NCBI GenBank assembly: GCA_905181595.1
Contig: CAJIYI010000001.1
Span: 1,083,938 to 1,147,937 of the forward strand
Reading direction: 5' to 3'
Length of the DNA stretch: 64,000 nucleotides
Source: an uncultured SAR86 cluster bacterium
GTDB lineage: Bacteria; Pseudomonadota; Gammaproteobacteria; Magnimaribacterales; D2472
Shown one piece after another: positions 1 to 40,634 of this stretch; position 1 is the first letter of the stretch, and each line of letters starts with the position of its first letter. The notes under the pieces were generated by a model. It was given only the letters and a program-made list of their open reading frames with translations. It ran no database searches and was not told the origin of the DNA. A program made the translations under genes and the position numbers.

Positions 1-869
1 CAAATAGAAGATATTATTTCTTCGGCTGCCTTTAATTGATTAATATCCTTAGAAGTTGGAACCAAAAGCACATCTGTTGCCCCAGCATCTTTGATCTCTA
101 GTAAAAATTCTTTTAAGTCTCTTTCAGTTCCAGCTAAGCCTGCAGTCTTTGAAAGTTCAGCGGCTAAATCTTCTCCCATCCAACCTAAATATCTATTAAG
201 GTGAATTTTAATATCTTGTCTAGAATTTTGACCCAAACCAAACCAAAAACTAGTGACAAGTCTAGGAGATTTTTTGGAATCTGCAAAAGCGTTTACGACT
301 CTATTGAAAGAATCTTTGATTTCTTCTATGTCAGCATTGAAAGAAAAGCCAGCCAAACCGTCTGAATAATCTGCTGCCATCTCCATGGCTTTTGGTCCGA
401 CAGCACCCGCAAGAATCTCAGGACCTTTCGCCGAAAAAAGTTCTGGCCCTAATTCTGAATGAATATCTTTAGACCAAATAGACTGCATAGTTTTTACTTT
501 TTCAGCAAGCAATCTCCATCTCCTATGTGACCAATTAGCACCTATGGCTTCATAGTCTTCCTCTCTTCCACCTACGCCAACCCCTAAAGTAAACCGTCCT
601 TCAGAAAGCATATCAATTGTTGCAAATTGTTTGGCGCTCAGCACAGGATCATGCATTGTGAGAACAGATATAGTTGCAATAATTTCTACCCTATTTGTCC
701 ATGCAGCTACAGCACTTAAGGTAGAAATAAATTCAGGATTTGAAAAAAGAATTCTTTCTCCTAGTGCAATATGCGACCAAGGCCCTTGATCAATTTGTTT
801 AGTCCATGCTTCTAAATCTTTGCGAGTTAAGCCTGGCTCCATGACCGGGAGGGTCATGCCTATTTTCAT
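1..869 (-). CDS. LLM-class flavin-dependent oxidoreductase, C-terminus cut by window edge
   Basis: The reading frame opens with ATG at 869 ([14 protein letters not shown]) and runs to the window edge without a stop, giving about 289 residues. That is close to the usual length of luciferase-like monooxygenases. Visible family features are the start of the TIM barrel, the segment [15 protein letters not shown] near residue 100, and [21 protein letters not shown] near residue 150. The family uses reduced FMN or F420; which one applies cannot be told here. Its ATG overlaps the upstream hsaF stop (ATGA), so it is translationally coupled to the steroid block. The M. tuberculosis cholesterol region also carries an LLM oxidoreductase (Rv3520c), but a shared role is only a guess. 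Confidence 0.8.
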
Positions 870-1885
870 GATTCAGATTTCTTTTTGATTAGATCTAAAG
901 CCACATCAACAATCATGTCTTCTTGACCGCCAACCATTTTTCTTTTTCCAAGCTCAACTAAGATTTCTCTTGTATCTAGATCATAAGTTTCAGCTGCTGA
1001 TTCTGCATGCCTTAAAAATGAAGAATAAACTCCAGCATAGCCAAGAGTGAGCGTTTCACGATCAACTCTCACTGGCCTATCTTGCAGGGGCCTTACCAGC
1101 TCTTCTGCAGCATCCATTAATTTGAATAAATCAGTTCCATGAGACCACCCCAAGCGATCAATGGCTGCAATAAAGACCTCTAAAGGTGCATTTCCAGCCC
1201 CAGCGCCCATTCCAGCTAAACTGGCATCAACACGATCAGCTCCATTCTCAACAGCAACTATTGAGTTAGCTACGCCCAAGGAGAGATTATGATGCGCATG
1301 CATGCCTGTTTGAGTTTCTGGTTTTAGTTCTTGTTTAAAAGCTTGAAATCTTTCTGCCACATCCGTCATGCTCAAAGCACCACCGGAATCCACAACATAA
1401 ACACATTCTGCTCCATAGGACTCCATTAGCTTTGCCTGGGCTGCTAAGTTGGATGGGGAGGTCATATGAGACATCATTAAAAATCCAATAGTATCCATGC
1501 CCAACTCTCTCGCAAACTCAATGTGCTGCCTAGAGACATCTGCTTCAGTGCAATGTGTTGCTACGCGAACAGACCTAACTCCTAAGTCCCAAGCCCATTT
1601 TAAATCCTCTTTAATTGCTATGCCTGGCAAAATCAAAGTAGTTAATTTTGCGTGCTGAAGATTCTCTGCAACTGCCCCAATCCATTCTTGATCAGTGTGA
1701 GCTCCAAAGCCGTAATTAAATGAAGATCCAGACAACCCATCTCCGTGAGCAACTTCAATTGCATCAACTTTAGCCTCGTCAAGAGCTTTGGCTATTTCGA
1801 CTACATGATCAAGACCATATTGATGTCGTATGGCATGCATTCCATCTCTCAAAGTTACATCTTGTATGTATATTTTTTTTGTCAT
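866..1885 (-). CDS. hsaF: 4-hydroxy-2-oxovalerate aldolase (HsaF/TesG type)
   Basis: Cleaves 4-hydroxy-2-oxo acids to pyruvate and an aldehyde, the last carbon-carbon cleavage of the meta-cleavage route. The 339-residue length matches DmpG/HsaF. The N-terminal motif [16 protein letters not shown] carries the conserved catalytic Arg and Asp, and [15 protein letters not shown] near residue 200 supplies the metal-binding histidines. The C-terminal domain continues to LIKKKSES. It overlaps hsaG upstream (ATGA at 1882-1885), as expected for enzymes that form a channelling aldolase-dehydrogenase complex. In steroid degraders the substrate is 4-hydroxy-2-oxohexanoate; the context supports that over the aromatic-pathway substrate, but sequence alone does not prove it. 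Confidence 0.93.
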
Positions 1886-2805
1886 GAGCTTAGTTTAATT
1901 AATTCTTCTGCTGTGCCCATTGCCGCGGAGGTCATAATATCTAAATTGCCAGCGTATTTTGGAAGGTAATGGCCTGCCCCCTCTACTTCAAGAAAAATAG
2001 ATGCTTTTAGCCCCTCAAATTCTCCGTATCCAGGAATTGCACAGGGATTATTTGAACCAAATCTTTCGAATTGAACCTCTTGCTTCAAACGATAGCCTGG
2101 CACATATGCTTGAACCTTCGCCACCATTGACTCAACGCTCTCTTTGACCTTGTCTTGGTCGATAGGATCGCATAATGTAAAAACCGTATTGCGCATGAGA
2201 AGAGGTGGCTCGGCTGGATTAAGAACAATAATAGCTTTTGCTTTATCTGCTCCACCTACTTTTTCTAGACCAAGAGCGGTAGTTTGAGTGAACTCATCAA
2301 TGTTTGCTCGTGTTCCCGGTCCTGCTGATTTTGAAGACACAGAAGCAACAATCTCAGCATATCTAACGCTCGAGACTTGATTGACTGCAGCAACCATTGG
2401 AATAGTTGCCTGACCACCGCAAGTAACCATATTTACATTCTGGGCCTGCAAATGCTCTGAAAGATTTACAACAGGCACACAATATGGGCCTATGGCTGCT
2501 GGGGTTAGATCAATCATTTGTTTGCCATCTTTCGAAATTAGATCGTGATGCATCTGATGCGCACCAGCAGATGTAGCATCAAAAAATATTTGAGTATCGG
2601 AATATTCAGGCATCTCCATAAATCCTTGCAAGCCTGTTGAAGAAGTTGCGATATTCATTGTGCTCGCCATTGCTAAACCTTCAGACTCTGGATCAATGCC
2701 AATGACACCAATTAAGTTAAGCGACTTTGATGTATTTGCAATTTTTAACATTAAATCAGTTCCAATATTTCCAGAACCAATAATCGCGCAGTTAGTTTTT
2801 TCCAT
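1882..2805 (-). CDS. hsaG: Acylating acetaldehyde/propionaldehyde dehydrogenase (HsaG/TesF type)
   Basis: Oxidises the aldehyde released by the aldolase to its CoA ester with NAD+. The 307-residue length is normal for the DmpF/HsaG family. The N-terminal Rossmann motif is [15 protein letters not shown], and the catalytic cysteine lies in [12 protein letters not shown] near residue 130. The conserved [22 protein letters not shown] and [13 protein letters not shown] segments follow. It is coupled by ATGA overlap to hsaF and lies 2 bases downstream of hsaE. In the steroid pathway the aldehyde is propanal and the product propionyl-CoA; this is inferred from the neighbouring hsaC and hsaD. Confidence 0.93.
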
Positions 2806-2807
2806 AG

Positions 2808-3593
2808 TTATATAAAGTTAATTTCACAAGTTCCAACACCCTTTAATTCCATAGAGAATTTATCTCCAGCTTTTGCTGGTTCAAGTGGGACCAAGGATCC
2901 AGATAGAATAATCTCTCCTTTTAACAAGGGAATATCGTATTCTCCAAGAGTATTGGCAAGCCAAGCAACTGCCTGAGCTGGATGACCTTGAACAGCTGAG
3001 CCTTTTCCTTCAGAAAGAAATTCACCATTCTTGATAACCTCAACTGATAGCTCTTCCATTGAAAACTTTTCAGGAGAACATGCGCCCTCTCCCAAAACAA
3101 AGATTCCGCATGAAGCGTTATCAGCAACTGTATCTTGAATTTTAATATTCCAATTTTCTATGCGTGAATCTACAATCTCAAAACATGGAAGAATTTTATC
3201 TGTGGCAGCAATAACATCCTCTTTGGAGATTCCTGGACCCAAAAGATCTTCTTTTAAGATAAAAGCAATTTCTGCTTCAGCTCTAGGTTGAATTAAAGAA
3301 TCCTCAATGGAAAAAGATGACCTATTTTGAACTCTCATGGTATCGGTTAAAAAACCAAAATCTGGCTGATCAACTCCCAGCATTTCTTGAACCACTGAGC
3401 TTGTTACACCAATTTTTTTTCCAACAACTTTCTCTCCACTAGACTCTCTTAAGGAAAGAAATTTTCTAGAAATTTGATACGCATCATTAATATCAATTTC
3501 TGGATACCTATCTGTGAGAGGTTGAATGATCTTTTGTTGATTTAATGCATCAAAAAGTTCGGATGCTATGTCATTGATAGTTTGGAGATTCAT
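2808..3593 (-). CDS. hsaE: 2-hydroxypenta/hexa-2,4-dienoate hydratase (HsaE/TesE type)
   Basis: Hydrates the 2-hydroxydienoate released by HsaD to a 4-hydroxy-2-oxo acid. The 261-residue length is typical of the MhpD/HsaE hydratase family. Visible conserved blocks are [37 protein letters not shown] with its metal-binding glutamates, and [11 protein letters not shown]. The C-terminal half contains [20 protein letters not shown], where the family has its substrate loop. It sits 3 bases from hsaD and 2 bases from hsaG, in the order D-E-G-F. 2-oxo-3-hexenedioate decarboxylase is a related alternative, but the neighbouring aldolase and dehydrogenase favour the hydratase. Confidence 0.92.
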
Positions 3594-3596
3594 GGC

Positions 3597-4406
3597 CTAG
3601 CTTGAAAGAAAATTTATGCATGCATTGTTAAATATCTCTTCTTTTTCAATCATCACCCAATGACCGCATTGACTAAACAGCATGATTTGAGCGTTTGGAC
3701 AGTTCTGTCCAATTTTCATAGAACCGGACACCGGAATAAATTGATCGTTAACTCCCCAGAATGCCAGAATTGGTTGAGTAAGATTATGAAGATCATTCTC
3801 CATATTAGGAATTGCCATTGTTGCTAGAACTTGAGAATTCATCAAAGGAAGAATCTCCATTCTTTCTTGCACCATTTCTTCGGTAATTATGGATGCGTCA
3901 TAGGGAAATAAGCCTAGAAGGCCTTCAATTTTCTCTTGATTCATGTCTCCGCCTAAAAAATCCGCTAATAATTTTTTAATTCCAGGCATTTCGTTATATA
4001 CGGCCATCTCTTCAACACCACCAGGTGCCATTAATATTAAATTTTTAACTCTGTCTGGGTGGTTAAGACCGAGACCAATAGAAAGTGCTCCGCCCAGACT
4101 ATTGCCAATCAACGAAAAAGTATCAACTCCCAATGCATCAAGAAGCTCGATAATTTTTTGATTGAAGTAATCCATAGAATAGATAACATCTTCAGGCTTG
4201 CTAGAAAATCCATACCCCGGAAGGTCAGGCAAAATGACTCTGAAGCCTGCTGCTTTTAGTGCGCTAAAGTTATTTTTAAAATTCGTATGTCCAGATGCAC
4301 CGGTTCCACTGCCATGCAATAAAACCACAACCTCTCCCTCACCTTCATCGTAAAAATGAAAGCGGAAATTTTCCTGGACATCTAGATATTGACCTTTGGG
4401 AATCAT
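3597..4406 (-). CDS. hsaD: Meta-cleavage product hydrolase (HsaD/TesD type)
   Basis: Alpha/beta hydrolase that cuts the carbon-carbon bond of the ring-opened meta-cleavage product. In steroid degraders it splits 4,9-DSHA into HIP (rings C/D) and 2-hydroxyhexa-2,4-dienoate. The oxyanion segment is LLHGSGTGASG, the nucleophile is Ser103 in GNSLGG, the acid is Asp221 in GVNDQFIP, and the base is His249 in QCGHWVMIEKEEIFN. That last motif is characteristic of BphD/HsaD enzymes. The 269-residue length is normal. Together with hsaC it links the meta-cleavage genes to the HIP genes upstream, which would use its second product. Confidence 0.92.
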   Translation of the reverse strand: MIPKGQYLDVQENFRFHFYDEGEGEVVVLLHGSGTGASGHTNFKNNFSALKAAGFRVILPDLPGYGFSSKPEDVIYSMDYFNQKIIELLDALGVDTFSLIGNSLGGALSIGLGLNHPDRVKNLILMAPGGVEEMAVYNEMPGIKKLLADFLGGDMNQEKIEGLLGLFPYDASIITEEMVQERMEILPLMNSQVLATMAIPNMENDLHNLTQPILAFWGVNDQFIPVSGSMKIGQNCPNAQIMLFSQCGHWVMIEKEEIFNNACINFLSS

Positions 4407-4410
4407 GAAA

Positions 4411-5757: not shown

Positions 5758-5768
5758 AGATCTCCTTA

Positions 5769-6542
5769 TTATGAATTTTTACTTAATAATTTCCACCAGT
5801 AATTTGGGAAAAATCTTCGAATCCTAGTTGCATACAATGCATCAGGGGTGGGGAAGCAAATCACTTTGTCGGTTAATAAGTCTCTTTCTATTGCTGTTAC
5901 CACGTCCTCTGGGTTATTAAGAGTGCCTTTTTTCATTGCCTTGCTAATAGAACTAGGAGCATCAGTTTCATCAACAAATCTCATTAATGGAGTATCTGTC
6001 ATAGCTGGGCAAACCAATAAAACACGAATAGCTGTATCTTCTAATTCTTTGGCTAATATTTCTCCAAACATATTTACTGCAGCTTTTGAGGCACTATAAG
6101 CAGCCATATTTTCAACTGGGCAGGTACCTGCTATAGAGCCAAAAAGTATAATTTGCCCTTCATTTCTTTCGATCATTGCTGGAAGGATGCTGGTAATAAT
6201 ATTCACCGTGCCTTCGTAATTAATTCTCATCAAGGTATTAATGGAGTTGGCTGTTAAATCTGCCACTTTACCCATAGGCATAATTGCACCAGCATTAGTA
6301 ACGCGATCTATTGGGCCCACTTCACTTTGAACCTGTTGAACCATAGCTTGAACAGCATCATTATCAGAAAGATCACATGGAAATATTGAAATATTATTAG
6401 ATTCTTGCTTTAACTCATTCAAGCCATTTTCATTCACATCTACTGCAGCAACATGCACGCCATCTGCAGCCAATCTTTTAGCGGAAATCCTACCCATGCC
6501 ACTCGCAGCGCCGGTAACTAATGCAACTTTAATATCTGTCAA
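5769..6542 (-). CDS. SDR-family oxidoreductase with TTG start
   Basis: Short-chain dehydrogenase. From the TTG at 6542 the protein begins (M)TDIKVALVTGAASGMG, the classical Rossmann cofactor motif. The catalytic Ser lies in ILFGSIAGTCP and the YxxxK motif is YSASK. The TTG is preceded by AGGGGG at 6554-6549 with a 6-base spacer and falls just after the stop of the upstream EthD-like gene. A longer reading from an ATG at 6572 would overlap that gene and add MKKIKYRGHV, which no SDR needs. The C-terminus (YATRIRRFFPNYWWKLL) is basic and aromatic and could touch a membrane. The substrate is unknown; its position suggests a steroid-pathway alcohol or ketone. Confidence 0.85.
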   Translation of the reverse strand: MTDIKVALVTGAASGMGRISAKRLAADGVHVAAVDVNENGLNELKQESNNISIFPCDLSDNDAVQAMVQQVQSEVGPIDRVTNAGAIMPMGKVADLTANSINTLMRINYEGTVNIITSILPAMIERNEGQIILFGSIAGTCPVENMAAYSASKAAVNMFGEILAKELEDTAIRVLLVCPAMTDTPLMRFVDETDAPSSISKAMKKGTLNNPEDVVTAIERDLLTDKVICFPTPDALYATRIRRFFPNYWWKLLSKNS

Positions 6543-6552
6543 AACGTGCCCC

Positions 6553-7260
6553 CTATATTTTATTTTCTTCAATCATTCTATAACGACTTGTAGGAATTAC
6601 TTCAATCTTTTGAAAATCAATAAAACTGCTACAACTATCCATCATTAACTCAGTATTCTTTGAAAGTAACGCAGGATCATTTTCTGCATTATAAAAAATA
6701 GCCGGATTAGACATAGCTTCAGATGGAAAACATTCCTCTATAACGGCTATAAAATTTGGAGAATCTTTTTGAAGCGGCCTTACAACCGTATTTTGCACAT
6801 ATGTAAAATTTGATTGTGTCTCAATGGCAATGTTGGTGTGATGATGAGTCCAATGATCAAACCAGTCAAATGCACTCATATGAGCAGGTTTTTCTAGAAA
6901 AACAACTTGCGAGAACCCTTCACTTCTTTTGCCTAAATGATCTTTGCTCTCATCATCAAGAATTATTGACTCGCTAACAATAAAGCCTTCTACTTTTGAA
7001 GTTAGTGAACTAAGGATCGAGACAATCTGTTCTGAATAATAGTGACTTAATACTTTGATAAAAATTATCGCGTTGGGATTTTTAGGGTAGCTTGACTGCA
7101 CCAATGCCGCTGCTGCGTCGACATCCTCATCTGCAATATTGATCTGTAGATCATTAACCAAGGGTGCAAGGGTAACTGGTAAATCCACAAGAAGAGAGTC
7201 TTTAAACTTGTCTAAGGAATCAGGTTCCTTCTTCCATAATTTAAAAACAATTTTTTCCAT
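6553..7260 (-). CDS. EthD-domain-like protein of unknown function
   Basis: A 235-residue protein of the dimeric alpha-beta barrel kind. The recognisable segment is FLEKPAHMSAFDWFDHWTHHHTNIA (about 115-140), which resembles the EthD signature (F..W..H...HA) and then continues YVQNTVVRPL. The first hundred residues look like a diverged copy of the same fold (LVDLPVTLAPLVNDLQINI, IIFIKVLSHY), so a tandem two-domain arrangement is likely. There are no signal peptide or membrane segments. Its start directly abuts the ipdF stop. EthD-like proteins accompany P450s and CoA-ester pathways, but the role here is unknown. Confidence 0.7.
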   Translation of the reverse strand: MEKIVFKLWKKEPDSLDKFKDSLLVDLPVTLAPLVNDLQINIADEDVDAAAALVQSSYPKNPNAIIFIKVLSHYYSEQIVSILSSLTSKVEGFIVSESIILDDESKDHLGKRSEGFSQVVFLEKPAHMSAFDWFDHWTHHHTNIAIETQSNFTYVQNTVVRPLQKDSPNFIAVIEECFPSEAMSNPAIFYNAENDPALLSKNTELMMDSCSSFIDFQKIEVIPTSRYRMIEENKI

Positions 7261-8043
7261 TTAAGCTCTTTGAGATGAAACCGATATTACTTCGCCGGTC
7301 ATATAGGACGATAAGTCAGATGCTAAAAATAAAATTATATTTGCTACTTCCCATGGTTCAGCACCTCTTCCATAAGCTTCTTGAGAGGCCAAATTATCAA
7401 TGAGCTCTGAAGAACTAGTCTTAGCGAGATGGGGGTTCATGGCAAGGCTTGGCGCTACAGCATTAATTCTTATGCCATGCTCCACAGTCTCCATGGCAAC
7501 ACATCTCGTTAAAGCCATTACGCCTGCCTTTGCAGCAGCATAATGAGATTGACCGGCTTGTGCCCGCCATCCCAAAACAGAGGCATTGTTTACAATGACG
7601 CCCTGCGTTTCTTTTAAGATAGGAATAGCAGCTCTCATCATCTTCATGGCACCATTTAACGTTACATCCATTACTAAATTCCAAGCTTCATTGCTCATAG
7701 TTTCCAATGCAGATTCCCCACCCAAGCCAGCATTATTAATGACACCATCTAAATGACTATAACGAGCTAAGGCCTGTTTAAACATAGCGTCAATTTCTTC
7801 ATCAGAAGTAACATTGCAAAGACACCCATCAACCTCTCCTAAATTTAAATTCTGAAGATTTTCAATCGCCTGATCTAATCTGCCCTGATGAACGTCTGAG
7901 ATAAAAACATTTGCACCTTCTTCTAAAAATCTTTTTGCAGTTGAGAATCCAATGCCGGCGCCAGCAGAAGCAGTCAATAAGATATTTTTGCCAATAAATA
8001 AATTTCGACCTTCTGGGTATTTTGGATTCATTAAATTATTCAT
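7261..8043 (-). CDS. ipdF: SDR dehydrogenase of the HIP pathway (IpdF type)
   Basis: The chosen ATG at 8043 (MNNLMNPKYPEG, 260 residues) overlaps the thiolase stop as ATGA. An upstream reading from 8091 would only add thiolase-shadow sequence. The cofactor motif is TASAGAGIG and the catalytic residues are Ser155 (VNNASVLGWRAQ), Tyr168 and Lys172 (SHYAAAKAGVMALTRC). The segments GRGAEPWEVANIILFLASD and SSYMTGEVISVSSQ closely match what I recall of M. tuberculosis IpdF (Rv3559c). That enzyme acts on the 5-hydroxy group of the HIP-CoA intermediate. The assignment is firm to family level; the exact hydroxy substrate is carried over from the family. Confidence 0.88.
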   Translation of the reverse strand: MNNLMNPKYPEGRNLFIGKNILLTASAGAGIGFSTAKRFLEEGANVFISDVHQGRLDQAIENLQNLNLGEVDGCLCNVTSDEEIDAMFKQALARYSHLDGVINNAGLGGESALETMSNEAWNLVMDVTLNGAMKMMRAAIPILKETQGVIVNNASVLGWRAQAGQSHYAAAKAGVMALTRCVAMETVEHGIRINAVAPSLAMNPHLAKTSSSELIDNLASQEAYGRGAEPWEVANIILFLASDLSSYMTGEVISVSSQRA

Positions 8044-9194
8044 GAGCAGTTCTCTAAAATAGTAACATTTGCCTGACCGCCACCCTCGCACATTGTTTGC
8101 AAGCCATAGCGAATTCCATCTCTTTTCATTGAATGTATCATGGTTGTCATAAGTCTTGCTCCAGTAGCCCCAAGAGGATGACCAAGAGCTATAGCGCCAC
8201 CATTAATATTAATTTGATCCATCGGATATTGCATTTCTTTTTGCCATGCCATTGCGACAGATGCAAAAGCTTCGTTAATTTCCACTATGCCAATATCATT
8301 GAGGCTGATTCCTGATTTCTTGATAGCATATTCAGTTGCAGGCATTGGTGCGGTGAGCATCCAAATTGGATCGTCTGCTCGAACACTAATATGAGCAATG
8401 CGGGCCAATGGAGTGAGGTTATGCTCTTTAAGAATTTTTTCAGACACTATTAGTATTGCAGAGGAAGCATCAGCATTTTGTGATGAGATTGCAGCAGTAA
8501 TGTCATGCCCTTCAATTATGGGATTGAGTGATGCCATTTTCTCTAATGATGTTTCAGCTCTGGGAGTCTCATCGGTATGAAAATCGCCAATTGGGACAAT
8601 TTCATCTACAAAATGTTTAGCATTAATTGCTCGCATTGCTTTTTGATGGCTCTCAAAAGCGAAACTCTCCATTTCTGCTCTGGAAATTTTCCACTTCTCT
8701 GCAATCATTTGCGCAGAATTAAACTGACTTACTTCTTGGTTGCCGTATCGCTTTACCCATCCAGTCGAGCCAGAAAAAGGGTCATCGAAACCTAGGGCTT
8801 GACCAGCCAACATGGCATAAGAAATTGGAATCATGTTCATGTTTTGCACCCCACCTGCAATCACAACATCAGCAGTGCCTGACATAATGGCTTGAGTGGC
8901 AAAATGGACAGCTTGTTGAGATGAGCCGCATTGACGGTCAACAGTTGTCCCAGGAACGTGTTCAGGTAGACCTGCTGCTAGCCAGCAAGTTCTGGCAATA
9001 TCGCCAGCTTGAGGTCCTACAGTATCAACGCATCCAAAAATAACATCCTCAACTAGCCCAGGATCTAGGTCCACTCTATCAAATGTAGCCGAAAGAATTG
9101 CAGCCCCTAGGTCTGCAGGATGCATGCTAGATAAGGAACCTTTCTTCTTTCCTATTGGGGTTCTTAAAGCACTGACAATGTATGCATCTTGCAT
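8040..9194 (-). CDS. fadA6: Thiolase of steroid ring C/D degradation (FadA6 type)
   Basis: Acetyl-CoA acyltransferase of 384 residues. The nucleophilic Cys89 lies in VDRQCGSSQQAVHFA, NEAFA forms part of the active site, His339 sits in ALGHPLGATGAR and the second cysteine, Cys369, in MCEGGGQANVTIL. In the HIP pathway FadA6 cleaves the beta-keto thioester that IpdAB produces. Its placement between ipdF and a pair of acyl-CoA dehydrogenases mirrors the Rv3556c neighbourhood. A general beta-oxidation thiolase cannot be excluded on sequence, but no FadB partner is nearby. A ribosome site AGAGGAAAAT precedes the ATG. Confidence 0.88.
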   Translation of the reverse strand: MQDAYIVSALRTPIGKKKGSLSSMHPADLGAAILSATFDRVDLDPGLVEDVIFGCVDTVGPQAGDIARTCWLAAGLPEHVPGTTVDRQCGSSQQAVHFATQAIMSGTADVVIAGGVQNMNMIPISYAMLAGQALGFDDPFSGSTGWVKRYGNQEVSQFNSAQMIAEKWKISRAEMESFAFESHQKAMRAINAKHFVDEIVPIGDFHTDETPRAETSLEKMASLNPIIEGHDITAAISSQNADASSAILIVSEKILKEHNLTPLARIAHISVRADDPIWMLTAPMPATEYAIKKSGISLNDIGIVEINEAFASVAMAWQKEMQYPMDQININGGAIALGHPLGATGARLMTTMIHSMKRDGIRYGLQTMCEGGGQANVTILENCS

Positions 9195-9210
9195 AATATT
9201 TTCCTCTTAT

Positions 9211-10248
9211 CTAAAAAGTATAAAGCACACCAATCTCATCATTGGAGGATTTTAGGGTATTAAAAATTATTTTTTGCTGCTGATCATCATTTCCCCAGCA
9301 AGCCATTAAAGACCAAGCTTTTCTCATATATATATGCAGATCCATTTCCCAGGTATACCCCATAGCACCATGAGCTTGAATACAGTTTTTGCAAGCTAAT
9401 TCTGCTGCCTTAACTGCCATGTATTTTGCATGCGCGCAATGAAGAGCGGATTTAGAATTGTGATCGAAGAGAGAATATGATGCTCTGTAAATTGCCGGCC
9501 TAGCAAATTCGATAGCTACCGCAACATCAGCCAGCATATGTTTAACTGCCTGAAAAGATCCAATAGGTTTACCAAATTGATTTCTATCCAAGACATAAGC
9601 TGAGCTTAGATCTAGCATCTTTTGCGCCAATCCAATCAATAAAGCAGCACTTTGCAGCGTTCCTCTTGAAATGACTGCTTGATTAAGAGTTGCAAAATTC
9701 TGATCTGAATGAATAGAACTTTTGATCTCATGGATTTTTGATAACACTCTAGAAGGATCATTTGATTTAATGTCCTCGCTATCATAATCACCTTTTTCAA
9801 GAAAATGACATGAGGTTTCATCAAACATTATCAATGCTTTTGAATCATCTAGAAATACAGGATGAGGATTGTGAGGGTGAGCAACAGCAATGTAATCCAT
9901 GCCGCTATTAAACTTAGACTTTATGGCTTCCTGAATCTCCGCAGGGAACAAGCCTAAAATGTCATTCACAAGAAAATTTTGCTCAGCAACAGGTTCTGGT
10001 AATGCAACATATCCCATCTCTTCTATCATTAAAGTTAAAGCGATTTGATCGATTCCTAGTCCGCCATCTTCTTCTTTTAAATTTGCGCCTAAGACGCCAA
10101 GGTCGCAAATGGCTTCCCATCTTTTAGCATTAAAGGGTTTATTTTCCTGCCAACCCAATCGAATAGAATCAGGAGTACATTCTTGAGCTAAGAAGCCTTT
10201 CATTGTTTCTTGAAATTGAAGCTGCTCCTCTGTAAATACAAATTTCAT
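9211..10248 (-). CDS. Acyl-CoA dehydrogenase, smaller member of a pair (FadE32/33-like)
   Basis: FAD-dependent acyl-CoA dehydrogenase of 345 residues. The N-terminal helical domain starts MKFVFTEEQLQFQETMKGFL. The C-terminal domain contains DRNQFGKPIGSFQAVKHMLADV and CIQAHGAMGYTWEMDLHIYMRKAW. The beta-domain in the middle (about 115-175) is short and poorly conserved, which is typical of the smaller partner in the heteromeric FadE pairs of steroid catabolism. It lies 3 bases from the larger dehydrogenase at 10252-11403. A heterotetramer of the two is inferred from that pairing. The individual CoA-ester substrate is not determinable. Confidence 0.82.
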   Translation of the reverse strand: MKFVFTEEQLQFQETMKGFLAQECTPDSIRLGWQENKPFNAKRWEAICDLGVLGANLKEEDGGLGIDQIALTLMIEEMGYVALPEPVAEQNFLVNDILGLFPAEIQEAIKSKFNSGMDYIAVAHPHNPHPVFLDDSKALIMFDETSCHFLEKGDYDSEDIKSNDPSRVLSKIHEIKSSIHSDQNFATLNQAVISRGTLQSAALLIGLAQKMLDLSSAYVLDRNQFGKPIGSFQAVKHMLADVAVAIEFARPAIYRASYSLFDHNSKSALHCAHAKYMAVKAAELACKNCIQAHGAMGYTWEMDLHIYMRKAWSLMACWGNDDQQQKIIFNTLKSSNDEIGVLYTF

Positions 10249-10251
10249 AAT

Positions 10252-11403
10252 TTACCTTGGCAATCCCAGTAAACGCTCAGCAATAATATTTTTTTGAATC
10301 TCATTGGTGCCAGCATAAATAGGTCCGGCATATGAAAACATGAAACCCTTAATCCACTGAGCTGCATCTTGATGCTCTTCAGTATCTAGTTCCGCATTCG
10401 CACCAAGAATTTTTAGTGCTGTTTCGTGCATCATATAATCTAATTCAGACCAAAATATCTTACCTAAACTAGACTCCGAGCCAATAGATCCACCGTCCAT
10501 TAACTTTGATGCTGTATGGTAGATACTTAAAGCATATGACTCAGATTGAGCCCAAGCATCAACTATTTTGGCTTGAATGGCTGGAGAACATGTAGATTCG
10601 TTTTCCAGATATAGCGATAAGAGTTTGGCGGCAGTCTGCTGGAATCTTGCAGGACTTCTAAGCATTAATCCTCTTTCAAATCCTGCTGTTGCCATTGCTA
10701 TTTTCCAACCCTCTCCTTCCCCACCAATTAAATTTTCTGCTGGGACCTTTACATCGTCAAAATATATTTCGGCAAAACCAGGCTCTCCGTCTAATTGAGG
10801 AATTGGTCGAACAGTAATGCCAGGTAGATCCAGTGGAGCTAAAATAAAAGATAATCCATGATGTCTCTCAGACTCTAAATCAGTTCGAAATAGCCCAAAA
10901 GTCCAATCTGCATAGGCCGCCCTTGAGGACCATGTCTTCTGACCATTTATTACAAAGAAACCATCTTCTAAAACTGCGGTTGTCCTAATTGCTGCCATGT
11001 CGCTCCCAGCACCAGGTTCTGACCAACCCTGAGCCCAGACATGATCTCCGGTTGCCATGGCATTAAGAAATTTATTTTTTTGAACATCTGTTCCGTATTC
11101 CATCAGTGTTGGGCCTAGAAGGAATACTCCATTTTGATTAACTCTAGTTGGTGCTTCAGCACGATAATACTCTTCTTCAAAAATTAACCATTCAATTAAA
11201 TTAAGGGCTCTGCCTCCATATTCTTTTGGCCATGTAACCATTGACCAGTTTCCAGAATTTAAAGTTTTTTCCCACTCTCTGTGTTGTTCGAAACCCTCTT
11301 TTGTGTCCAAGGATTGGAGCTTATTTTTAGGCAGGTTCAGCTCTAACCAAGAACGAATTTCTTGGCGAAAAGTATTTTGCTCTTCTGTAAAATTAATCTT
11401 CAT
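10252..11403 (-). CDS. Acyl-CoA dehydrogenase, larger member of a pair (FadE31/32-like)
   Basis: Full-length acyl-CoA dehydrogenase of 383 residues. The N-terminal domain begins MKINFTEEQNTFRQEIRSWLE. The FAD-binding middle region contains WAQGWSEPGAGSDMAAIRTTA and QKTWSSRAAYADW, and the protein ends YAGPIYAGTNEIQKNIIAERLLGLPR. These blocks match the FadE28/FadE31-type subunits of actinobacterial steroid clusters. It overlaps echA20 by 11 bases and precedes its likely partner by 3 bases. It probably introduces a double bond into an acyl-CoA from ring C/D breakdown; the exact step is inferred from the neighbourhood. Confidence 0.85.
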   Translation of the reverse strand: MKINFTEEQNTFRQEIRSWLELNLPKNKLQSLDTKEGFEQHREWEKTLNSGNWSMVTWPKEYGGRALNLIEWLIFEEEYYRAEAPTRVNQNGVFLLGPTLMEYGTDVQKNKFLNAMATGDHVWAQGWSEPGAGSDMAAIRTTAVLEDGFFVINGQKTWSSRAAYADWTFGLFRTDLESERHHGLSFILAPLDLPGITVRPIPQLDGEPGFAEIYFDDVKVPAENLIGGEGEGWKIAMATAGFERGLMLRSPARFQQTAAKLLSLYLENESTCSPAIQAKIVDAWAQSESYALSIYHTASKLMDGGSIGSESSLGKIFWSELDYMMHETALKILGANAELDTEEHQDAAQWIKGFMFSYAGPIYAGTNEIQKNIIAERLLGLPR

Positions 11404-12154
11404 CGTTAAAGTTAGCGTCTCTTTTTTCTACAAATGCATCTCTTGCTTCTTGAGAATCTTTGGATTTATATAATTCTAAAGTAAATGTTTGCTCAGATTT
11501 GTAATGCTCATCCACATCTCCATTTTCTATCTGATTTAGAGCTTTTTTTGCAAGGTTCATTGCTATGGAACTCTTAGAGGCAATATCAGAAGCAATCTCC
11601 ATTGCAGCATCATGCAATGAATCAATATTTTCGTGAAGAGATTCAATGGATCCATACTCATAGGCTCTTTGAGCAGAGATAGGCTTGCCTGTAAACATCA
11701 TTTTTCTAACAGCCTGAAGGGGAAACAATCTACTTAAATGAGCTCCACCACCCAAGGCTCCTCGATCAATTTCAGGAAGACCAAAGTAAGCCTCTTTTGT
11801 AGCAAGTACTATATCGGAGGCGCCAGCAAGCAGAATGCCGCCACCCAGGACAAACCCATGACAGGCAGAAATTACTGGAACATTACAAACATGAATAGCT
11901 CTTGCTGTTTTCCAACAACCATCATTTACTGCAGAAATTTTAGTCGGATCTTCTTGCAACTCTTTTACATCTGCGCCTGCACAAAACCCTTTGCCTGCAG
12001 CAGATATCAAAATTACTTTTACTTCATCATCGTGTGATAAAAAATCTATATTTTTGGCTAAATCTAACCATTCTTGAGAATTCAATGCATTGACTGGCGG
12101 GCAATCTAAAACAATCTCAGCTATGCCATTTTTAATTGATGTATTTACGCCCAT
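11393..12154 (-). CDS. echA20: Crotonase-fold ring hydrolase (EchA20 type)
   Basis: Crotonase-family protein of 253 residues. Landmarks are DCPPVNALNSQEWLDLA, the oxyanion-hole segment GKGFCAGADVKELQED, GFVLGGGILLAGASDIVLA, and FGLPEIDRGALGGGAHLSRL. The ending YKSEQTFTLELYKSKDSQEARDAFVEKR also fits. This pattern matches M. tuberculosis EchA20 (Rv3550), which hydrolytically opens steroid ring D on the CoA ester. Distinguishing it from an ordinary enoyl-CoA hydratase rests on these EchA20-like segments and on the flanking ipdC, ipdA and ipdB. It starts 3 bases after ipdC ends. Confidence 0.85.
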   Translation of the reverse strand: MGVNTSIKNGIAEIVLDCPPVNALNSQEWLDLAKNIDFLSHDDEVKVILISAAGKGFCAGADVKELQEDPTKISAVNDGCWKTARAIHVCNVPVISACHGFVLGGGILLAGASDIVLATKEAYFGLPEIDRGALGGGAHLSRLFPLQAVRKMMFTGKPISAQRAYEYGSIESLHENIDSLHDAAMEIASDIASKSSIAMNLAKKALNQIENGDVDEHYKSEQTFTLELYKSKDSQEARDAFVEKRDANFNDED

Positions 12155-12157
12155 AAT

Positions 12158-13220
12158 CTATCTCCTTATTCCCTCTAACTTTGAGCAAGCCTGATCAAAA
12201 TCACTCATAATCTCTAGAACTAAGTCTTCGCAAGCTGGCAGATTGGTAATAATACCAGCCACCTGACCGGATGGCATTGCTCCTTCTTCAGGAAACCCCT
12301 CAACCATTGCTTTCTGAATAATTGCTGGGCTATTAGCTGACATAACAGACTGCGAAATAGTTAAATCATCTCCTTTGAGCATCGCAAAAAAAGCTTTAAT
12401 TAGATCTTTGTAGGAAGATTGAGTTAATTGCTTGTACTTAATGGCAGACCCTATAGAGATCCACAATAGAGTAAATGGATTTGAATGATCTATCTTTTTT
12501 ATATAATCATTAAAAATAAGCCTATGCGGCAGTCCATCAAATTTTTTGGTTATTTTGATATCATCGATTCCAGCTGAAATATAAGATTCTTTGGTCTGAC
12601 TCGGCACCGGACTTTCTTGAGTCATCATAAACCTTGTGCCCATTGCAATACCGTCAGCTCCCCAGGCTAATGCAGCAGCCAGTCCTGACCCATCTCGAAA
12701 TCCTCCAGCAGCGATCACAGGTATATTTACCTTTTGCAATACAGAACTTAACAATAGCGTCGTAGGGGTTGAACCTGTGTGACCACCCCCTTCAGAGCCC
12801 TGGATAACCAAAGCATCGGCACCTAATTCCTCAGCCTTGATAGCATGCTTTAAAGCACCAACAGTTGGCATACAAATTACACCATGTTTTTTAAACTCTT
12901 GAATATACTCAGCCACAGGAGAGCGCGAATAACTTACCGCTTTAATTCTATGTTTAATCACTGTTGCAACAATTTGATCAGCACCTGGTTGAAACATATG
13001 AAAGTTTATTCCAAAAGGTTGGTCGGTAAGAGTAAGTGTTTTTTCAATCATCTCTATTGCTTCCTCAGGACCACAGGTTGCCAGAGCAAGAAATCCAAAT
13101 GCTCCAGCATTAGAAGAAGCTGCAACTAATTCTGGAGTTGCAACCCACCCCATCGCCGTTTGGATAATTGGGTATTTACAACCCAAGATGTTTGTTAACT
13201 TATTGATATCGAGTCTCAGG
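12158..13220 (-). CDS. ipdC: NPD/2-nitropropane-dioxygenase-like flavoenzyme (IpdC type); 5' end probably frameshifted
   Basis: FMN-dependent TIM-barrel protein. The open frame from TTG at 13186 gives 342 residues (GCKYPIIQTAMGWVATPELVAASSNAG). Later blocks are ADALVIQGSEGGGHTGSTPTTLLL, IPVIAAGGFRDGSGLAAALAWGADG and AMGTRFMMTQES, with ISQSVMSANSPAIIQKAMVEG near the C-terminus. They match IpdC (Rv3553), which acts with EchA20 before ring D opening. The family normally begins MRL..PLT.L.G. Here the codons for LTNIL lie just upstream, and RLDINK lies in the +1 frame from CTG at 13220. One extra A in the run at 13199-13202 would explain this, so I place the start near 13220. Confidence 0.82.
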
Positions 13221-13225
13221 TATTA

Positions 13226-14110
13226 TTATTTTTTCTTCGGAGCTTTTTTCTTTGGTGTTTTTTTCTTAGTTCTCTGTGAATCAGCCATCTTTTTCGCATC
13301 AAAGCCAGATAAAACATTGCCGGTGGTTAAATCATTGTGTGCATGAGAAAAATGATGCCATGCAAATGCTGCTTCCATGCCATTGCGCTTTCCTTGTAAA
13401 TCTTCTACGTGATTGATAGCTTGTTTGGTAAGTAACAGTCCCATTCTTGGCATCTGGGCTATTTTTTCTGCCATTTCCATGACGCTTGATTCTAGGTCAG
13501 TCAAAGGCACAACTTTATTTACCATGCCCATTTCATAGCCTCTTGCAGCAGACATTCTTTCGCCTAAAAATAAAAACTCTTTCGCTATTCGGGGATTGAG
13601 CTCATACGGGTGAGCAAAATACTCAACACCTGGAATGCCCATTCGCACTACAGGATCTGCAAAAAATGCATCGTCAGACGCAACAATAAGATCGCAAACC
13701 CAAGCAAGCATGCAGCCACCGGCAACGCATGCACCATGAACCATCGCTATAGTTGGTTTGGGTATATCTCTCCATCTTCTGCACATATTTAAGTAGACTT
13801 CTTGTTCGCGCACATATAAAAATTCTCCGCCCGGCTTATTTGTATGGTCATACCACATAGACTTACGGTCATATTCAACATCAATATCTCTTCCAGGCGT
13901 TCCAATATCATGGCCTGCTGAGAAATGCCTGCCATTTCCTTTTAAAACAATAACTTTAACCTCATCATCATCTACGGCTTTTTTAAAAGCCTTGTCTAGA
14001 TCGTATGTCATCTTTCCATTTTGAGCGTTGTTATACTCTGGTCGATTCATTGCAATGATGGCAATCCCATCTTTCTTTTTATACTTAACTGTTGGCTTAG
14101 CACGTGTCAT
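13226..14110 (-). CDS. Enoyl-CoA hydratase with lysine-rich C-terminal tail
   Basis: Crotonase-family protein of 294 residues. Landmarks are MNRPEYNNAQNGKMTYDLDKA, GRHFSAGHDIGTPG, the long insertion YDRKSMWYDHTNKPGGEFLYVREQEVYLNMCRRWRDIPKPTIA, and GACVAGGCMLAWVCDLIVASDDAFFADPVVRMG. That long insertion is typical of the roughly 290-residue enoyl-CoA hydratases found in actinobacterial and steroid-type gene sets. The last 20 residues (QRTKKKTPKKKAPKKK) are almost all Lys, Pro, Thr and Ala, an addition I do not associate with the family. It is separated by 2 bases from ipdB upstream. It probably hydrates a steroid-derived enoyl-CoA; the substrate is unknown. Confidence 0.83.
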   Translation of the reverse strand: MTRAKPTVKYKKKDGIAIIAMNRPEYNNAQNGKMTYDLDKAFKKAVDDDEVKVIVLKGNGRHFSAGHDIGTPGRDIDVEYDRKSMWYDHTNKPGGEFLYVREQEVYLNMCRRWRDIPKPTIAMVHGACVAGGCMLAWVCDLIVASDDAFFADPVVRMGIPGVEYFAHPYELNPRIAKEFLFLGERMSAARGYEMGMVNKVVPLTDLESSVMEMAEKIAQMPRMGLLLTKQAINHVEDLQGKRNGMEAAFAWHHFSHAHNDLTTGNVLSGFDAKKMADSQRTKKKTPKKKAPKKK

Positions 14111-14112
14111 TT

Positions 14113-14868
14113 TTATTCCCCAAAAATTATTTTTCTTGTACCCATCGGATCAAGAACTTCTCTTATTAATGTCAGCTCTTCATCAGAGGGTAATGTAGTT
14201 TCTTCATCTGATTTGATGGCTATGTTAAAACCCGTGTTCTCAATAATATCCTCAATGCTAACGCCAGGATGTATTGAAAGAAGTTGCAGCTGATGATCGG
14301 GGCCATTGAAATCAAATACACCAAGATTTGTTACAACTGAAAATATATCTGGCTTTGATGCGAGCGCATGTTGATTGTTGTATCCCATGCCTGAAACCAT
14401 ATCCACCTCTCCCTCAACAAATGTTTTAATTGAGTGATTGGGTATAAATATAGAATTTCTATGGCTGATAAAATTTCCTGGAAATCCCCGAACCCCTAGC
14501 AATTGAACTTTTGGATTGCTGTGATCTCCAATGCAACTAATGTTTGTTTGTCCAAAAGAATCTATCTGAGTTGGGGTAACCATGGCATGTCTCTGCCCGC
14601 CCCATAAATTCTCAAATACCCTGCTGTAACTCATGTAGCCTTCAATCAAATCTTCTGAAGCATCTCTTTTACCCATCGGCAGAGGCTTAGAGATTAAAAA
14701 AGTCTCTCCATCGGTCATCATTAGATCAGGATTGCAGGTAAGCTTAGCAAGACCAGCTGCAATTCTTGGAATTAATCCAATGCCTGTAGCTAGAAGCTCT
14801 CCATCATCTTTCCATGCTTTAGAAGCAGCAGTTATACATATTTCTGATAGGGATATTGAATCTGCCAT
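14113..14868 (-). CDS. ipdB: Beta subunit of steroid ring C hydrolase (IpdB)
   Basis: CoA-transferase-fold protein of 251 residues that partners IpdA. Matching landmarks are FENLWGGQRHAMVTPTQIDSFGQTNIS, VQLLGVRGFPGNFISHRNSIF, and IPNHSIKTFVEGEVDMVSGMGYNN. In M. tuberculosis and Rhodococcus IpdAB is not a transferase but hydrolyses the last carbocycle of COCHEA-CoA. The Gln-Ile-Asp-x-Phe-Gly segment and the GVRG.PGN segment match my recollection of Rv3552. It lies 1 base after ipdA ends, as expected for a co-translated heterodimer. Confidence is high because both subunits match and lie in order. Confidence 0.93.
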   Translation of the reverse strand: MADSISLSEICITAASKAWKDDGELLATGIGLIPRIAAGLAKLTCNPDLMMTDGETFLISKPLPMGKRDASEDLIEGYMSYSRVFENLWGGQRHAMVTPTQIDSFGQTNISCIGDHSNPKVQLLGVRGFPGNFISHRNSIFIPNHSIKTFVEGEVDMVSGMGYNNQHALASKPDIFSVVTNLGVFDFNGPDHQLQLLSIHPGVSIEDIIENTGFNIAIKSDEETTLPSDEELTLIREVLDPMGTRKIIFGE

Positions 14869-14869
14869 A

Positions 14870-15739
14870 TTAAAATTGAGGTAAGGGAATATTGTTTACA
14901 AAAGTCTCTCCACCAACTGCTTCAATATAATCTGTATGCGAGATGTTGAGATACTTGTCGTTATAATCTTCGAAAGATTTAGCTGCTGCTGAGTAAGTTT
15001 TTAAGTGCTCCATGTCAAAGCCATAATTCGGAGCACATGATGTTGGATGAGCTCCACCCGGAGCATGAGTGACTCCTGTAACTAAACTACGTTCGAATCT
15101 ATTAAAAATTGCACCTTCCTTGCCGCCAAGCCCTTCTGTTTCAACCACTTCTTCAGCAGACACATATGTTTTGTTAGCAGCTCTAGCGAACATTTCATCA
15201 AAAAATGGGTCTGGACCAAAAATTTGAGTGTTCCCTTTTTGGTCTGACTTGTTCACATGCAACAAAGCTACATCTAAATTAAGTGCTGGCATAGCGACGT
15301 ATTGCTCGCCATCCGCATAAGGTGAAGTGATAAGTTTAATCTCAGGATTATTTTTTAAAACATCGGTACCAAAGCCAACTCTTGTTGGCAGAAAAGATAG
15401 TTTCATAGCGGCGGCTCTTAGGCCCCACTGCACCATGCCCTCGTCTAACTCCATGACCTCTAGTTCTCCGTTTTGGCGTGCCTGACGGAAATGAGAATCT
15501 AAAGGAATCATATCCAACGAGACAAAACCAAAGATTAATTTTTTAACCTTGCGGTGAGCACATAGCAATCCCACATCTGGGCCTCCATAACTAACAATGG
15601 TTAGGTCTTTTAAGTCGGATTGGCAAATTGCTCTTATTAATGACATAGGCTTACGACGGGCTCCCCAGCCTCCAACACCAATAGTCATTCCGTCTGAAAG
15701 TTGGCTGATTACATCAGAGTGTGAAAGAATTTTATTCAT
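14870..15739 (-). CDS. ipdA: Alpha subunit of steroid ring C hydrolase (IpdA)
   Basis: CoA-transferase-fold protein of 289 residues. It begins with SDGMTIGVGGWGARRKPMSLIRAI, then VSYGGPDVGLLCAHRKVKKLIFGFVSLD, and LDEGMVQWGLRAAAMKLSFLPTRVG. These segments align well with Rv3551. Glu100 in LDEGM is the likely counterpart of the catalytic Glu105 reported for M. tuberculosis IpdA; the equivalence is my inference without an alignment. A second-half block, HVNKSDQKGNTQIFGPDPFFDEMFA, is also conserved. It lies between hsaC and ipdB, so the ring A/B and ring C/D genes sit together on one transcript. Confidence 0.94.
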   Translation of the reverse strand: MNKILSHSDVISQLSDGMTIGVGGWGARRKPMSLIRAICQSDLKDLTIVSYGGPDVGLLCAHRKVKKLIFGFVSLDMIPLDSHFRQARQNGELEVMELDEGMVQWGLRAAAMKLSFLPTRVGFGTDVLKNNPEIKLITSPYADGEQYVAMPALNLDVALLHVNKSDQKGNTQIFGPDPFFDEMFARAANKTYVSAEEVVETEGLGGKEGAIFNRFERSLVTGVTHAPGGAHPTSCAPNYGFDMEHLKTYSAAAKSFEDYNDKYLNISHTDYIEAVGGETFVNNIPLPQF

Positions 15740-15743
15740 GGGT

Positions 15744-16646
15744 CTAACTCTCAGGTGGAGAAAATGCGTGACCCCAAAAACTTGGTATCTTACTTTCTTG
15801 CTTAGTAAATGTTTCCCAGTCTACCTGCCATCCGTCGTAACCAAACTCTAAGTCAAAGCCACTAGGAGTCTGCATATAAAAAGAAACCATCATGTCGTTT
15901 GAGTGCCTACCCAATGAAGATGAAATGTGAACATTGTTTTGCATGGCTCTATCAAGACCATGTCCCACCTCATCAACATTATTCACCTCTACCATGGTAT
16001 GTATTAAACCAGAGGGAGGAATGGGAGATTCATACAGAGCAACGGTATGATGTCTAGGATTATCGCAATGCATAAAATGTAACTTAACTTCAGGAGCATC
16101 TGGCGCAGGACCCATTGGAAAATTCATATAATCAGAATCTCCAAAACCCAAAGTATCTATATAAAAACTATGAGCTACCTCTAAATCAGGTGCTGCAAAA
16201 ACTACATGACCAAATCCAAGTCCTTTGGTAATAAAACCTTTGATATCTTGAGGAGATAGAAATGGCTCATCTGCATCCGCTCCCCCATAAGATATTTCTA
16301 AAGCATTTCCTGCTGGGTCTTTTAAAGTAATCCCGTTTTCTACACAGCGAGCTGCGATGAGCTCATCTGAAAAATCAGCAAATTCAATATTTGCGCTTGT
16401 TAGCTCATTTTTAGCTACCTCAAATTCCTCTTTTCCTCTAATGTTCAGTCCAGCAGCAATAAATTTCTTAGACCCGCCAGTTTGAATATGAAATCTAAAA
16501 GCTTTTTCATCCATCCGAAGGTATAAATTATGATCATCACTCAATGATTCATTTTTCATTAGACCAACTACATTTTTAGCATAATCATCCCACTCTTGTA
16601 GATCGGTAGTTTCAATTGATACATAACTTAAAGATTCTATTTTCAT
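15744..16646 (-). CDS. hsaC: Type I extradiol ring-cleavage dioxygenase (HsaC/TesB type)
   Basis: Fe(II)-dependent dioxygenase made of two vicinal-oxygen-chelate domains, 300 residues. The metal ligands are His147 (GFGHVVFAAPD), His216 (GLIHTMVEV) and Glu267 (GFDLEFGYDG). His199/200 (NPRHHTVAL), His248 (LGRHSNDMMVSFY) and Tyr257 fill the catalytic positions. In steroid degradation HsaC opens ring A of 3,4-DHSA. Biphenyl or catechol substrates are the alternative, but ipdAB directly downstream argues for the steroid. It is the first gene of the block, and AAGAGG lies 4 bases before its ATG. Confidence 0.92.
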   Translation of the reverse strand: MKIESLSYVSIETTDLQEWDDYAKNVVGLMKNESLSDDHNLYLRMDEKAFRFHIQTGGSKKFIAAGLNIRGKEEFEVAKNELTSANIEFADFSDELIAARCVENGITLKDPAGNALEISYGGADADEPFLSPQDIKGFITKGLGFGHVVFAAPDLEVAHSFYIDTLGFGDSDYMNFPMGPAPDAPEVKLHFMHCDNPRHHTVALYESPIPPSGLIHTMVEVNNVDEVGHGLDRAMQNNVHISSSLGRHSNDMMVSFYMQTPSGFDLEFGYDGWQVDWETFTKQESKIPSFWGHAFSPPES

Positions 16647-39966: not shown

Positions 39967-40634
39967 TCTCTCAATTTCATCTCCAAATAATTCAATTCTG
40001 AGCGCTCTCTTTCAGAGTCTGCAGGGTAAATATCAATTACATCGCCTCTTACCCTAAAAGTTGCTCTACGAAAATCAATATCATTTCTTGTGTATTGCAT
40101 GGCAGAGAGACGGCGCAGAATTGAGCGCTGATCGATAGTATCACCGCGATCTAAATGAAGGATCATATTCAGATAAGCTTCAGGCGCGCCCAGTCCATAA
40201 ATAGCAGATACTGTTGCAACAACAATAGTGTCATTTCTTTCTAATAAAGCTTTTGTAGCTGAGAGTCGCATTTGCTCGATGTGTTCATTAATAGAAGCAT
40301 CTTTTGCAATATAAGTATCTGAAGTAGGCACATAGGCTTCTGGCTGATAATAATCGTAATAAGAAACAAAGTATTCAACTGAGTTAGATGGGAAAAAATC
40401 TTTTAATTCTCCATAAAGCTGTGCTGCTAATGTTTTATTTGGTGCCATTATCACCGCTGGTCTTTGGGTGGATTCAATGACTTTTGCCATTGTATAAGTC
40501 TTACCTGAGCCCGTTACTCCCAGTAAAACCTGATGTAATAACCCATCATTTAGACCTTTGACCAGGCTATCAATTGCTGCCGGCTGATGTCCTGCTGGTT
40601 CAAAGGGAGATTGAACGATTAAATTTTTTGTCAT
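39945..40634 (-). CDS. uvrB: UvrB, N-terminal part before a frameshift
   Basis: Opens [32 protein letters not shown], the UvrB N-terminus. Walker A is [17 protein letters not shown], then [40 protein letters not shown], the signature region for DNA and UvrA binding. It ends at [18 protein letters not shown]. After that the frame drifts; adding one G near 40005 continues [19 protein letters not shown]. UvrB is a highly conserved repair protein, so the break is probably not biological. Confidence 0.95.

Follow-up and report, generated by a model that had tools for sequence, protein, structure and literature searches.

Steroid catabolism has been attributed to the SAR86 cluster of marine Gammaproteobacteria before. 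In the excerpts of the two papers used here, the testosterone/cholate pathway was assigned to all three SAR86 drafts then available (Bergstrand 2016, PMC4810484), and tesI, hsaA, hsaC, hsaD, fadD3, kshA and kstD were reported from some genomes of the Suzuki family, D2472 (ISME J 2024, PMC11582366). Lineage and pathway are the same as those considered here. The terms Rieske, ipdA, P450 and F420 do not appear in the main text of the 2024 paper, although the supplements of either paper might mention them. The ordinary 3-ketosteroid 9-alpha-hydroxylase (KshA; solved structures 4qdc and 2zyl) is a single polypeptide. In an uncultured D2472 bacterium (genome G000; 1.41 Mb, 87.6% complete) we analyzed a stretch of 64,000 nucleotides (“the window”; contig CAJIYI010000001.1, hereafter C1, positions 1083938-1147937) with a run of 18 steroid-type genes at one end, and found that the run continues beyond the window edge with a KshA encoded by two genes. 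Gene content, order, conservation, motifs and selection make it probable, in our judgment, that the window carries the main part of an operon, conserved in SAR86, that degrades steroid rings aerobically by the 9,10-seco route and opens ring B with a two-protein KshA. Because steroid catabolism in SAR86 is in print since 2016 (and again in 2024) and the gene order from HsaC to IpdF is shared by a Vibrio plasmid, most of the headline is known. Apparently new are the split KshA, the loss of the cluster in a second oxygenase and the co-occurrence of F420 genes with IpdA, the split KshA together with the second, decaying Rieske domain being the part most worth testing.

The last gene of the run within the window codes for a luciferase-like (LLM) oxidoreductase whose stop codon falls at window position 0; after a gap of 116 bp come two open reading frames (ORFs) that together correspond to KshA. 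Scanning 61 loci (L004 and L051-L110), we found KshA as two genes in every one of the 30 that hold both halves whole. Several of these are the same record twice, hence they amount to 21 distinct pairs. The other 31 do not hold both halves whole and mostly do not reach KshA; L098 and L103 have both halves with the catalytic gene cut and were not counted, and one more locus with both halves (L113) lies outside the scan. The relative frames of the two genes vary and their spacing ranges from -17 to +22 bases. The small protein keeps the motif CxHx17CxxH in 30/30 loci. In the large one there is no Rieske motif, and DxxHxxxxH is preserved in 29/30, the thirtieth having ambiguous bases. Pfam finds Rieske in the small protein only, and KshA_C in the large one (plus a sub-threshold VanA_C in one of two). 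The best solved match of both is KshA: the small protein covers residues 20-139 of 4qdc (E 1.3e-34, best non-KshA 8.7e-13) and the large one residues 121-353 strongly and 20-66 weakly, whereas residues 67-120, the cluster-binding segment, have no counterpart in it. Between them, the two proteins have all the cluster ligands and the iron motif. Judged by these sequences, the SAR86 enzyme resembles KshA but would not be an ordinary member, its cluster and iron domains lying on separate polypeptides.

Both genes seem to be maintained. The catalytic half has matches in 26 of 35 genomes, and all 24 full-length ones are in frames of 281-290 amino acids (three more are cut). The ratio of nonsynonymous to synonymous substitution (dN/dS) lies between 0.02 and 0.08 for both KshA genes, each compared in four pairs, of which one has saturated dS. 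A GGAG precedes the start of the large gene in 10 of the 12 loci read and is absent in L082 and L101. Fused forms are found elsewhere. In a class sample of 369 genomes, four match at E 1e-20, the source genome included; the nearest outside relative comes from G267, where two frames, both fused, show 50% identity. One of the two, 344 amino acids long and with intact ligands, adjoins an HsaC homologue (43% identity to the HsaC of the window). Homologues carried by plasmids were fused in each of the five examined (four by motif search, the fifth by reading), out of 36 records matched. Aligned with fused proteins, the large protein has the same N-terminal stretch and then a clean gap at the cluster ligands; one aligned with fused KshA over its whole length (41%), again with a gap at the ligand region. 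Since the first strands appear to be retained in both halves, a duplication of fused KshA followed by complementary loss would fit better than a simple cut. Phrase searches of the open-licence PubMed Central (PMC) literature found no description of a separate, split or stand-alone Rieske protein, and a Rieske subunit that stands alone would seem to be a variant not described before.

As for the mechanism, the small protein would hold the [2Fe-2S] cluster and the separate large protein the mononuclear iron, carrying out the 9-alpha-hydroxylation that opens ring B. In ordinary trimers, the iron receives its electrons from the cluster of a neighboring subunit (12.1 versus 44.7 angstroms in the NdmA/NdmB case; PMC10380055, in excerpt), so a cut in the KshA chain would not necessarily interrupt electron transfer. 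We infer that the Rieske protein takes the place of the Rieske domain of the neighboring subunit in the trimer, with electrons crossing the interface. The closest precedent is the methylxanthine demethylase NdmC/NdmD, as described in the same excerpt, in which the oxygenase NdmC lacks a cluster of its own and relies on a Rieske domain located in a second protein. However, in NdmD this domain is fused to a reductase, whereas in SAR86 it is a stand-alone protein encoded beside the catalytic gene.

A separate donor could also have other partners. The genome has a second KshA-family oxygenase (G000:C1 939913-940926; L006 9913-10929), with matches in 25 of 35 genomes. We read 22 of the 25 loci, leaving out the short fragments L270-L272, and 21 include the Rieske part. 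The four cluster ligands are kept in 12/21, while the remaining nine have CYSH, CYCQ, CYCH, CYCT, CYCN or CFCS; the iron ligands are intact in 22/22. These nine group together in a single clade (FastTree support 0.998), in which the mean identity is 69% for the Rieske part versus 87% for the catalytic part; the corresponding values for the group with intact ligands are 87% and 90%. It looks like an oxygenase losing a cluster that it may no longer need, which makes a donor in trans an attractive hypothesis. The Rieske-only protein might then serve this oxygenase or the P450 of the operon, besides or instead of the KshA catalytic protein, and by motif no other Rieske-only frame was found in the window and 12 further stretches of the same genome (about a fifth of it). 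Still, its gene adjoins the catalytic gene in all 30 loci with both, and the protein is most like the Rieske domain of KshA, so we regard this alternative as unlikely. A broader modular system, with one Rieske protein supplying several cluster-less oxygenases in a steroid pathway that also uses F420 through the LLM protein, is a tentative and rather doubtful proposal.

The two-protein KshA would be part of a 9,10-seco pathway (Table 1): ring A would be degraded by meta-cleavage (HsaC, HsaD and HsaEGF) and rings C and D by hydrolysis with FadD3, IpdF, the IpdC-like and EchA20-like proteins, IpdAB, the dehydrogenases and the thiolase. IpdA and IpdB are the firmest identification. In the solved-structure search, IpdA gave 258 bits to 6co6 versus 88 to glutaconate CoA-transferase, and IpdB 195 bits to 6con versus 62; IpdA also keeps glutamate at the position where 6co6 has E and 6coj has A. 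We take these three entries to be IpdAB and the position to be the catalytic residue. The two proteins therefore do not appear to be ordinary CoA-transferases, a grouping that the preliminary description of the window, together with a grouping of HsaC and HsaD with biphenyl or phenol-pathway enzymes, had contemplated as fatal to its steroid interpretation. That description had also called the motifs of IpdA, IpdB, IpdF, HsaC and HsaD specific, which goes too far for HsaC and HsaD taken by themselves, as these are nearly tied with biphenyl enzymes. The best solved match of HsaC is 2zi8, presumably the Mycobacterium tuberculosis HsaC (201 bits versus 174). It is the operon context, and not the scores alone, that would assign HsaC and HsaD to steroids. 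The names EchA20, FadA6 and IpdF are those that we take to go with models PRK07938, PRK07801 and PRK07831, and the IpdC-like label derives from context. Beyond the split KshA come two Lrp/AsnC regulators, a FadD3-family ligase (NF005801, 705 versus a cut-off of 657) and a 2-hydroxyacid dehydrogenase. On balance, the steroid reading of the operon is supported.

Table 1. Genes of the SAR86 steroid-type run. Positions refer to the window unless contig C1 is indicated; identities come from Pfam, NCBIfam and solved-structure searches with the curated model cut-offs applied, and scores are in bits.
Feature	Position	Strand	Evidence
HsaC, extradiol dioxygenase, 300 amino acids, first gene	15744..16646	-	2zi8 201; NF045631 258; TIGR03213 278
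IpdA, ring-cleaving hydrolase, alpha subunit	14870..15739	-	6co6 258; glutamate kept
IpdB, beta subunit	14113..14868	-	6con 195
Enoyl-CoA hydratase (PRK08290)	13226..14110	-	452, cut-off 280; 86-92% identity in 10 relatives
IpdC-like nitronate-monooxygenase-family flavoprotein	12158..13186	-	FabK-type model 224, below cut-off 453; position, Vibrio synteny
Second hydratase, EchA20-like (PRK07938)	11393..12154	-	313, cut-off 260
Acyl-CoA dehydrogenase, large partner (FadE pair)	10252..11403	-	best model TIGR03204 224, below cut-off 624
Acyl-CoA dehydrogenase partner, IpdE2-like	9211..10248	-	best model NF050027 (IpdE2) 111, below cut-off 450
Thiolase, FadA6-type (PRK07801)	8040..9194	-	652, cut-off 591
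IpdF-type short-chain dehydrogenase/reductase (SDR; PRK07831)	7261..8091	-	387, cut-off 336
EthD-domain protein	6553..7260	-	PF07110 29 versus 22; 10/10 relatives, 32-83% identity
Second SDR	5769..6572	-	PF00106
Cytochrome P450, 448 amino acids	4411..5757	-	PF00067 233; 71-94% identity in 10 relatives
HsaD, meta-cleavage product hydrolase	3597..4406	-	NF045632 186; BphD model 179
HsaE-type hydratase	2808..3593	-	TIGR03220 361, below cut-off 409
HsaG, acylating aldehyde dehydrogenase	1882..2805	-	TIGR03215 444, cut-off 282
HsaF, 4-hydroxy-2-oxovalerate aldolase	866..1885	-	TIGR03217 590, cut-off 286
LLM oxidoreductase, F420- or FMN-dependent	1..869	-	PF00296; TIGR03619 105, below cut-off 167
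KshA Rieske-only protein, 145 amino acids (outside window)	C1 1083383-1083820		
KshA catalytic protein, 281 amino acids (outside window)	C1 1082526-1083371		

Several results weigh against a steroid operon with a two-protein KshA. In the large KshA protein, the match over residues 20-66 is weak when taken alone (i-Evalue 0.29), and the AlphaFold model of this protein (mean pLDDT 41, with the N-terminal strands at residues 21-80 reaching about 67-87) is too poor to test the assembly. HsaC scores higher with the biphenyl model (TIGR03213, 278 bits) than with its own (NF045631, 258 bits, cut-off 450 unmet), and HsaD is ambiguous, both by models (186 bits for HsaD, cut-off 400 unmet, versus 179 for BphD) and by solved structures (BphD 156 bits, HsaD 150). 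HsaE is also under its cut-off (361 versus 409 bits), as are the IpdC-like protein and both FadE. The KstD-like protein of the genome (G000:C1 782513-784141) gives 526 bits to 3-oxosteroid 1-dehydrogenase, under the cut-off of 788. HsaA has no match in the source genome, and in none of the 33 IpdA-bearing genomes does it exceed the model cut-off of 450 bits. Lastly, the P450, EthD, second SDR and LLM proteins have no role that we know of in the textbook pathway, which leaves room for a substrate other than androstenedione.

The absence of HsaA might be a matter of assembly. A homologue is present in 26 of the 33 IpdA-bearing genomes (best 399 bits; the model also matches, below the cut-off, in 7/14 control genomes), and one relative's HsaA-like protein scores 394 bits with HsaA versus 250 with the model that comes next. 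In the seven genomes that have both genes on the same contig (G015, G033, G035, G036, G047, G048 and G049), HsaA is located ca. 112-135 kb from IpdA. In our genome C1 stops 89 kb past IpdA, and thus hsaA may fall in an assembly gap beyond the contig end. A flavin reductase (PF01613), possibly HsaB, was found in 32 of the 33 genomes, a family that also matches 13/14 controls. In G033, HsaA (L160 9646-10860) is far from the operon, between genes that we take to be carboxylesterase-like and pyruvate-dehydrogenase-like. In some SAR86 genomes (L168 3945-9579, L169 3550-7572 and L167; some gene names in these stretches were assigned by eye), an HsaA-like gene is grouped with KstD-like genes and the gene of a KshA-like Rieske oxygenase; the HsaA-like group of G032 is near glycosyltransferase-like genes, and similar genes are found near a KstD-like gene in the source genome. 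This suggests a variable catabolic cassette.

Regarding the substrate, a polycyclic compound other than a sterol or androgen, such as a modified or aromatic steroid, could be prepared for the pathway by the P450, EthD, second SDR and LLM proteins, which are conserved within the run. Among the best 80 of 374 P450 relatives (79 loci), 31 have operon genes around them, and 24 of these 31 belong to SAR86 cluster bacteria, including SAR86E (AMWX01000005.1) and the complete genome D2474-A1-1 (CP097973.1). The 48 loci outside SAR86, many of them cut short, hold relatives of 38-54%, and only one (L121) is clearly beside operon homologues; in L125 an HsaC homologue (33%) lies about 5 kb from the P450, and some others have single weak matches. 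L121 (134-11347) is from the isolate M0112, a gammaproteobacterial metagenome-assembled genome, and contains a different steroid-type run (hydratase, dehydrogenases, thiolases and SDR) with the relative of the operon P450 at its end. Although this distribution would speak for such a substrate, the lineage has KshA, KstD-like, HsaA-like, HsaC, HsaD, FadD3 and Ipd genes, and we find a substrate other than a sterol or androgen rather improbable. We initially favored the P450 as a replacement of HsaAB in the hydroxylation of 3-HSA, as its gene adjoins HsaD and the source genome has no HsaA match, and rejected this upon finding the HsaA homologue in 26/33 relatives (in the seven with both genes on one contig, at a distance that here falls past the end of C1); such a replacement is now very hard to credit.

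An artifactual split of KshA is the weakest alternative. Two genes of the window that we take to be purL and uvrB each consist of two overlapping frames (34014-37872 and 38866-40634), which suggests base errors of this assembly. Because these housekeeping genes look broken, a frameshift was first assumed for KshA too, but a frameshift, assembly error or pseudogene is very improbable given that the split is present in 30/30 loci from different assemblies, one complete genome included, with uniform catalytic frames of 281-290 amino acids, that the large protein retains an N-terminal stretch and a start of its own, often together with a GGAG, and that both genes are under purifying selection.

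The two-protein KshA belongs to an arrangement that is kept across relatives. IpdA is present in 33 of 107 genomes of the family, in 3 of its 10 genera. We fetched 10 of the 32 other IpdA-bearing genomes and, in all of them, spanning the three genera, the gene order from HsaC to KshA is the same; therefore the arrangement is not due to chance. Beyond KshA the gene content varies or the contigs end, and G048 has no regulator match. The run itself consists of 18 consecutive minus-strand ORFs filling window positions 3-16646, with 17 junctions: five overlaps (11, 52, 20, 4 and 4 bp) and 12 gaps of 0-39 bp. The ORF listing and family searches agree with the preliminary description on the number of genes, their single strand and the mixture of ring A/B and ring C/D genes, as well as on an AT-rich marine gammaproteobacterium (GC content of 35-41% in 2-kb steps). 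It overstated the ATGA-type overlaps, found at only two junctions, and, being confined to the window, could not include the split KshA; the P450, EthD and LLM proteins went unnamed. Having ring A/B and C/D genes in one run, which it emphasized, is true here and yet not peculiar to SAR86, since a plasmid of Vibrio alfacsensis (NZ_CP140104.1, 139318-174147) carries an HsaC-IpdAB-like block in the same order: VOC, CoA-transferase, hypothetical, hydratase, nitronate monooxygenase, hydratase, two acyl-CoA dehydrogenases, thiolase and SDR. By position, the VOC protein would be HsaC and the hypothetical protein would take the place of IpdB. Unlike SAR86, this 35-kb stretch has, by annotation, no P450, EthD, LLM or Rieske gene. 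None of 186 marine Vibrio genomes had steroid degradation genes according to the part of a 2016 survey available here.

The LLM protein raises the question of F420. It is under the cut-off of every F420 model that it matched (the best being TIGR03619, 105 versus 167) and, among solved structures, it is about equally near to flavin mononucleotide (FMN) and F420 enzymes. An F420-dependent oxidoreductase, Rv3520c, is listed for mycobacterial cholesterol degradation in the consulted portion of PMC12855090; it is likewise an LLM-type protein in a steroid gene set, but its model (TIGR03559) gives the SAR86 protein only 43 bits. Elsewhere on the contig (G000:C1 726565-731887; L166 565-5887) we found a locus with NpdG, CofE, CofD, CofC and a CofGH fusion. 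All of them, with the CofG and CofH domains taken separately, pass their cut-offs; the full CofGH model was just missed (980 versus 1018), and CofE has 157 amino acids and matches model positions 92-244 only. By these gene matches, the organism appears to have the genes for F420 synthesis. CofD is present in 29 of 106 family genomes (26 over the cut-off), confined to the three genera that also have IpdA, and both occur together in 27. The overlap is imperfect: G018, G028, G030 and G051 have IpdA without a cofD match, G046 and G050 are not among the cofD matches listed, and G026 and G034 have cofD without an IpdA match. The cofD model also matches 6/14 controls, in three over the cut-off. In a tree of AlaS (29 sequences, 25 of the family; the fragment of G012 was left out), the sampled members of the three genera form one clade with support 100, so the co-distribution may reflect one ancestral event, and we no longer consider it strong functional evidence. 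No relevant account of F420 in SAR86 was found in the excerpts searched of the open-licence PMC literature (PMC8067304 is not relevant).

SAR86 makes up as much as 6% of the surface-ocean community, according to an excerpt of PMC11582366, which makes its steroid chemistry relevant to marine carbon. The F420 locus bears on the question of why Proteobacteria make this cofactor, listed as unanswered in the section consulted of a 2021 review (PMC8498797). Rieske oxygenases, a large class, are usually regarded as one polypeptide with both metal sites, in which electrons move from one subunit to its neighbor, and a natural two-protein form would make the electron transfer between them directly testable. 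If true, the split enzyme would be a template for modular oxygenases, and annotation that relies on intact Rieske domains could miss such enzymes.

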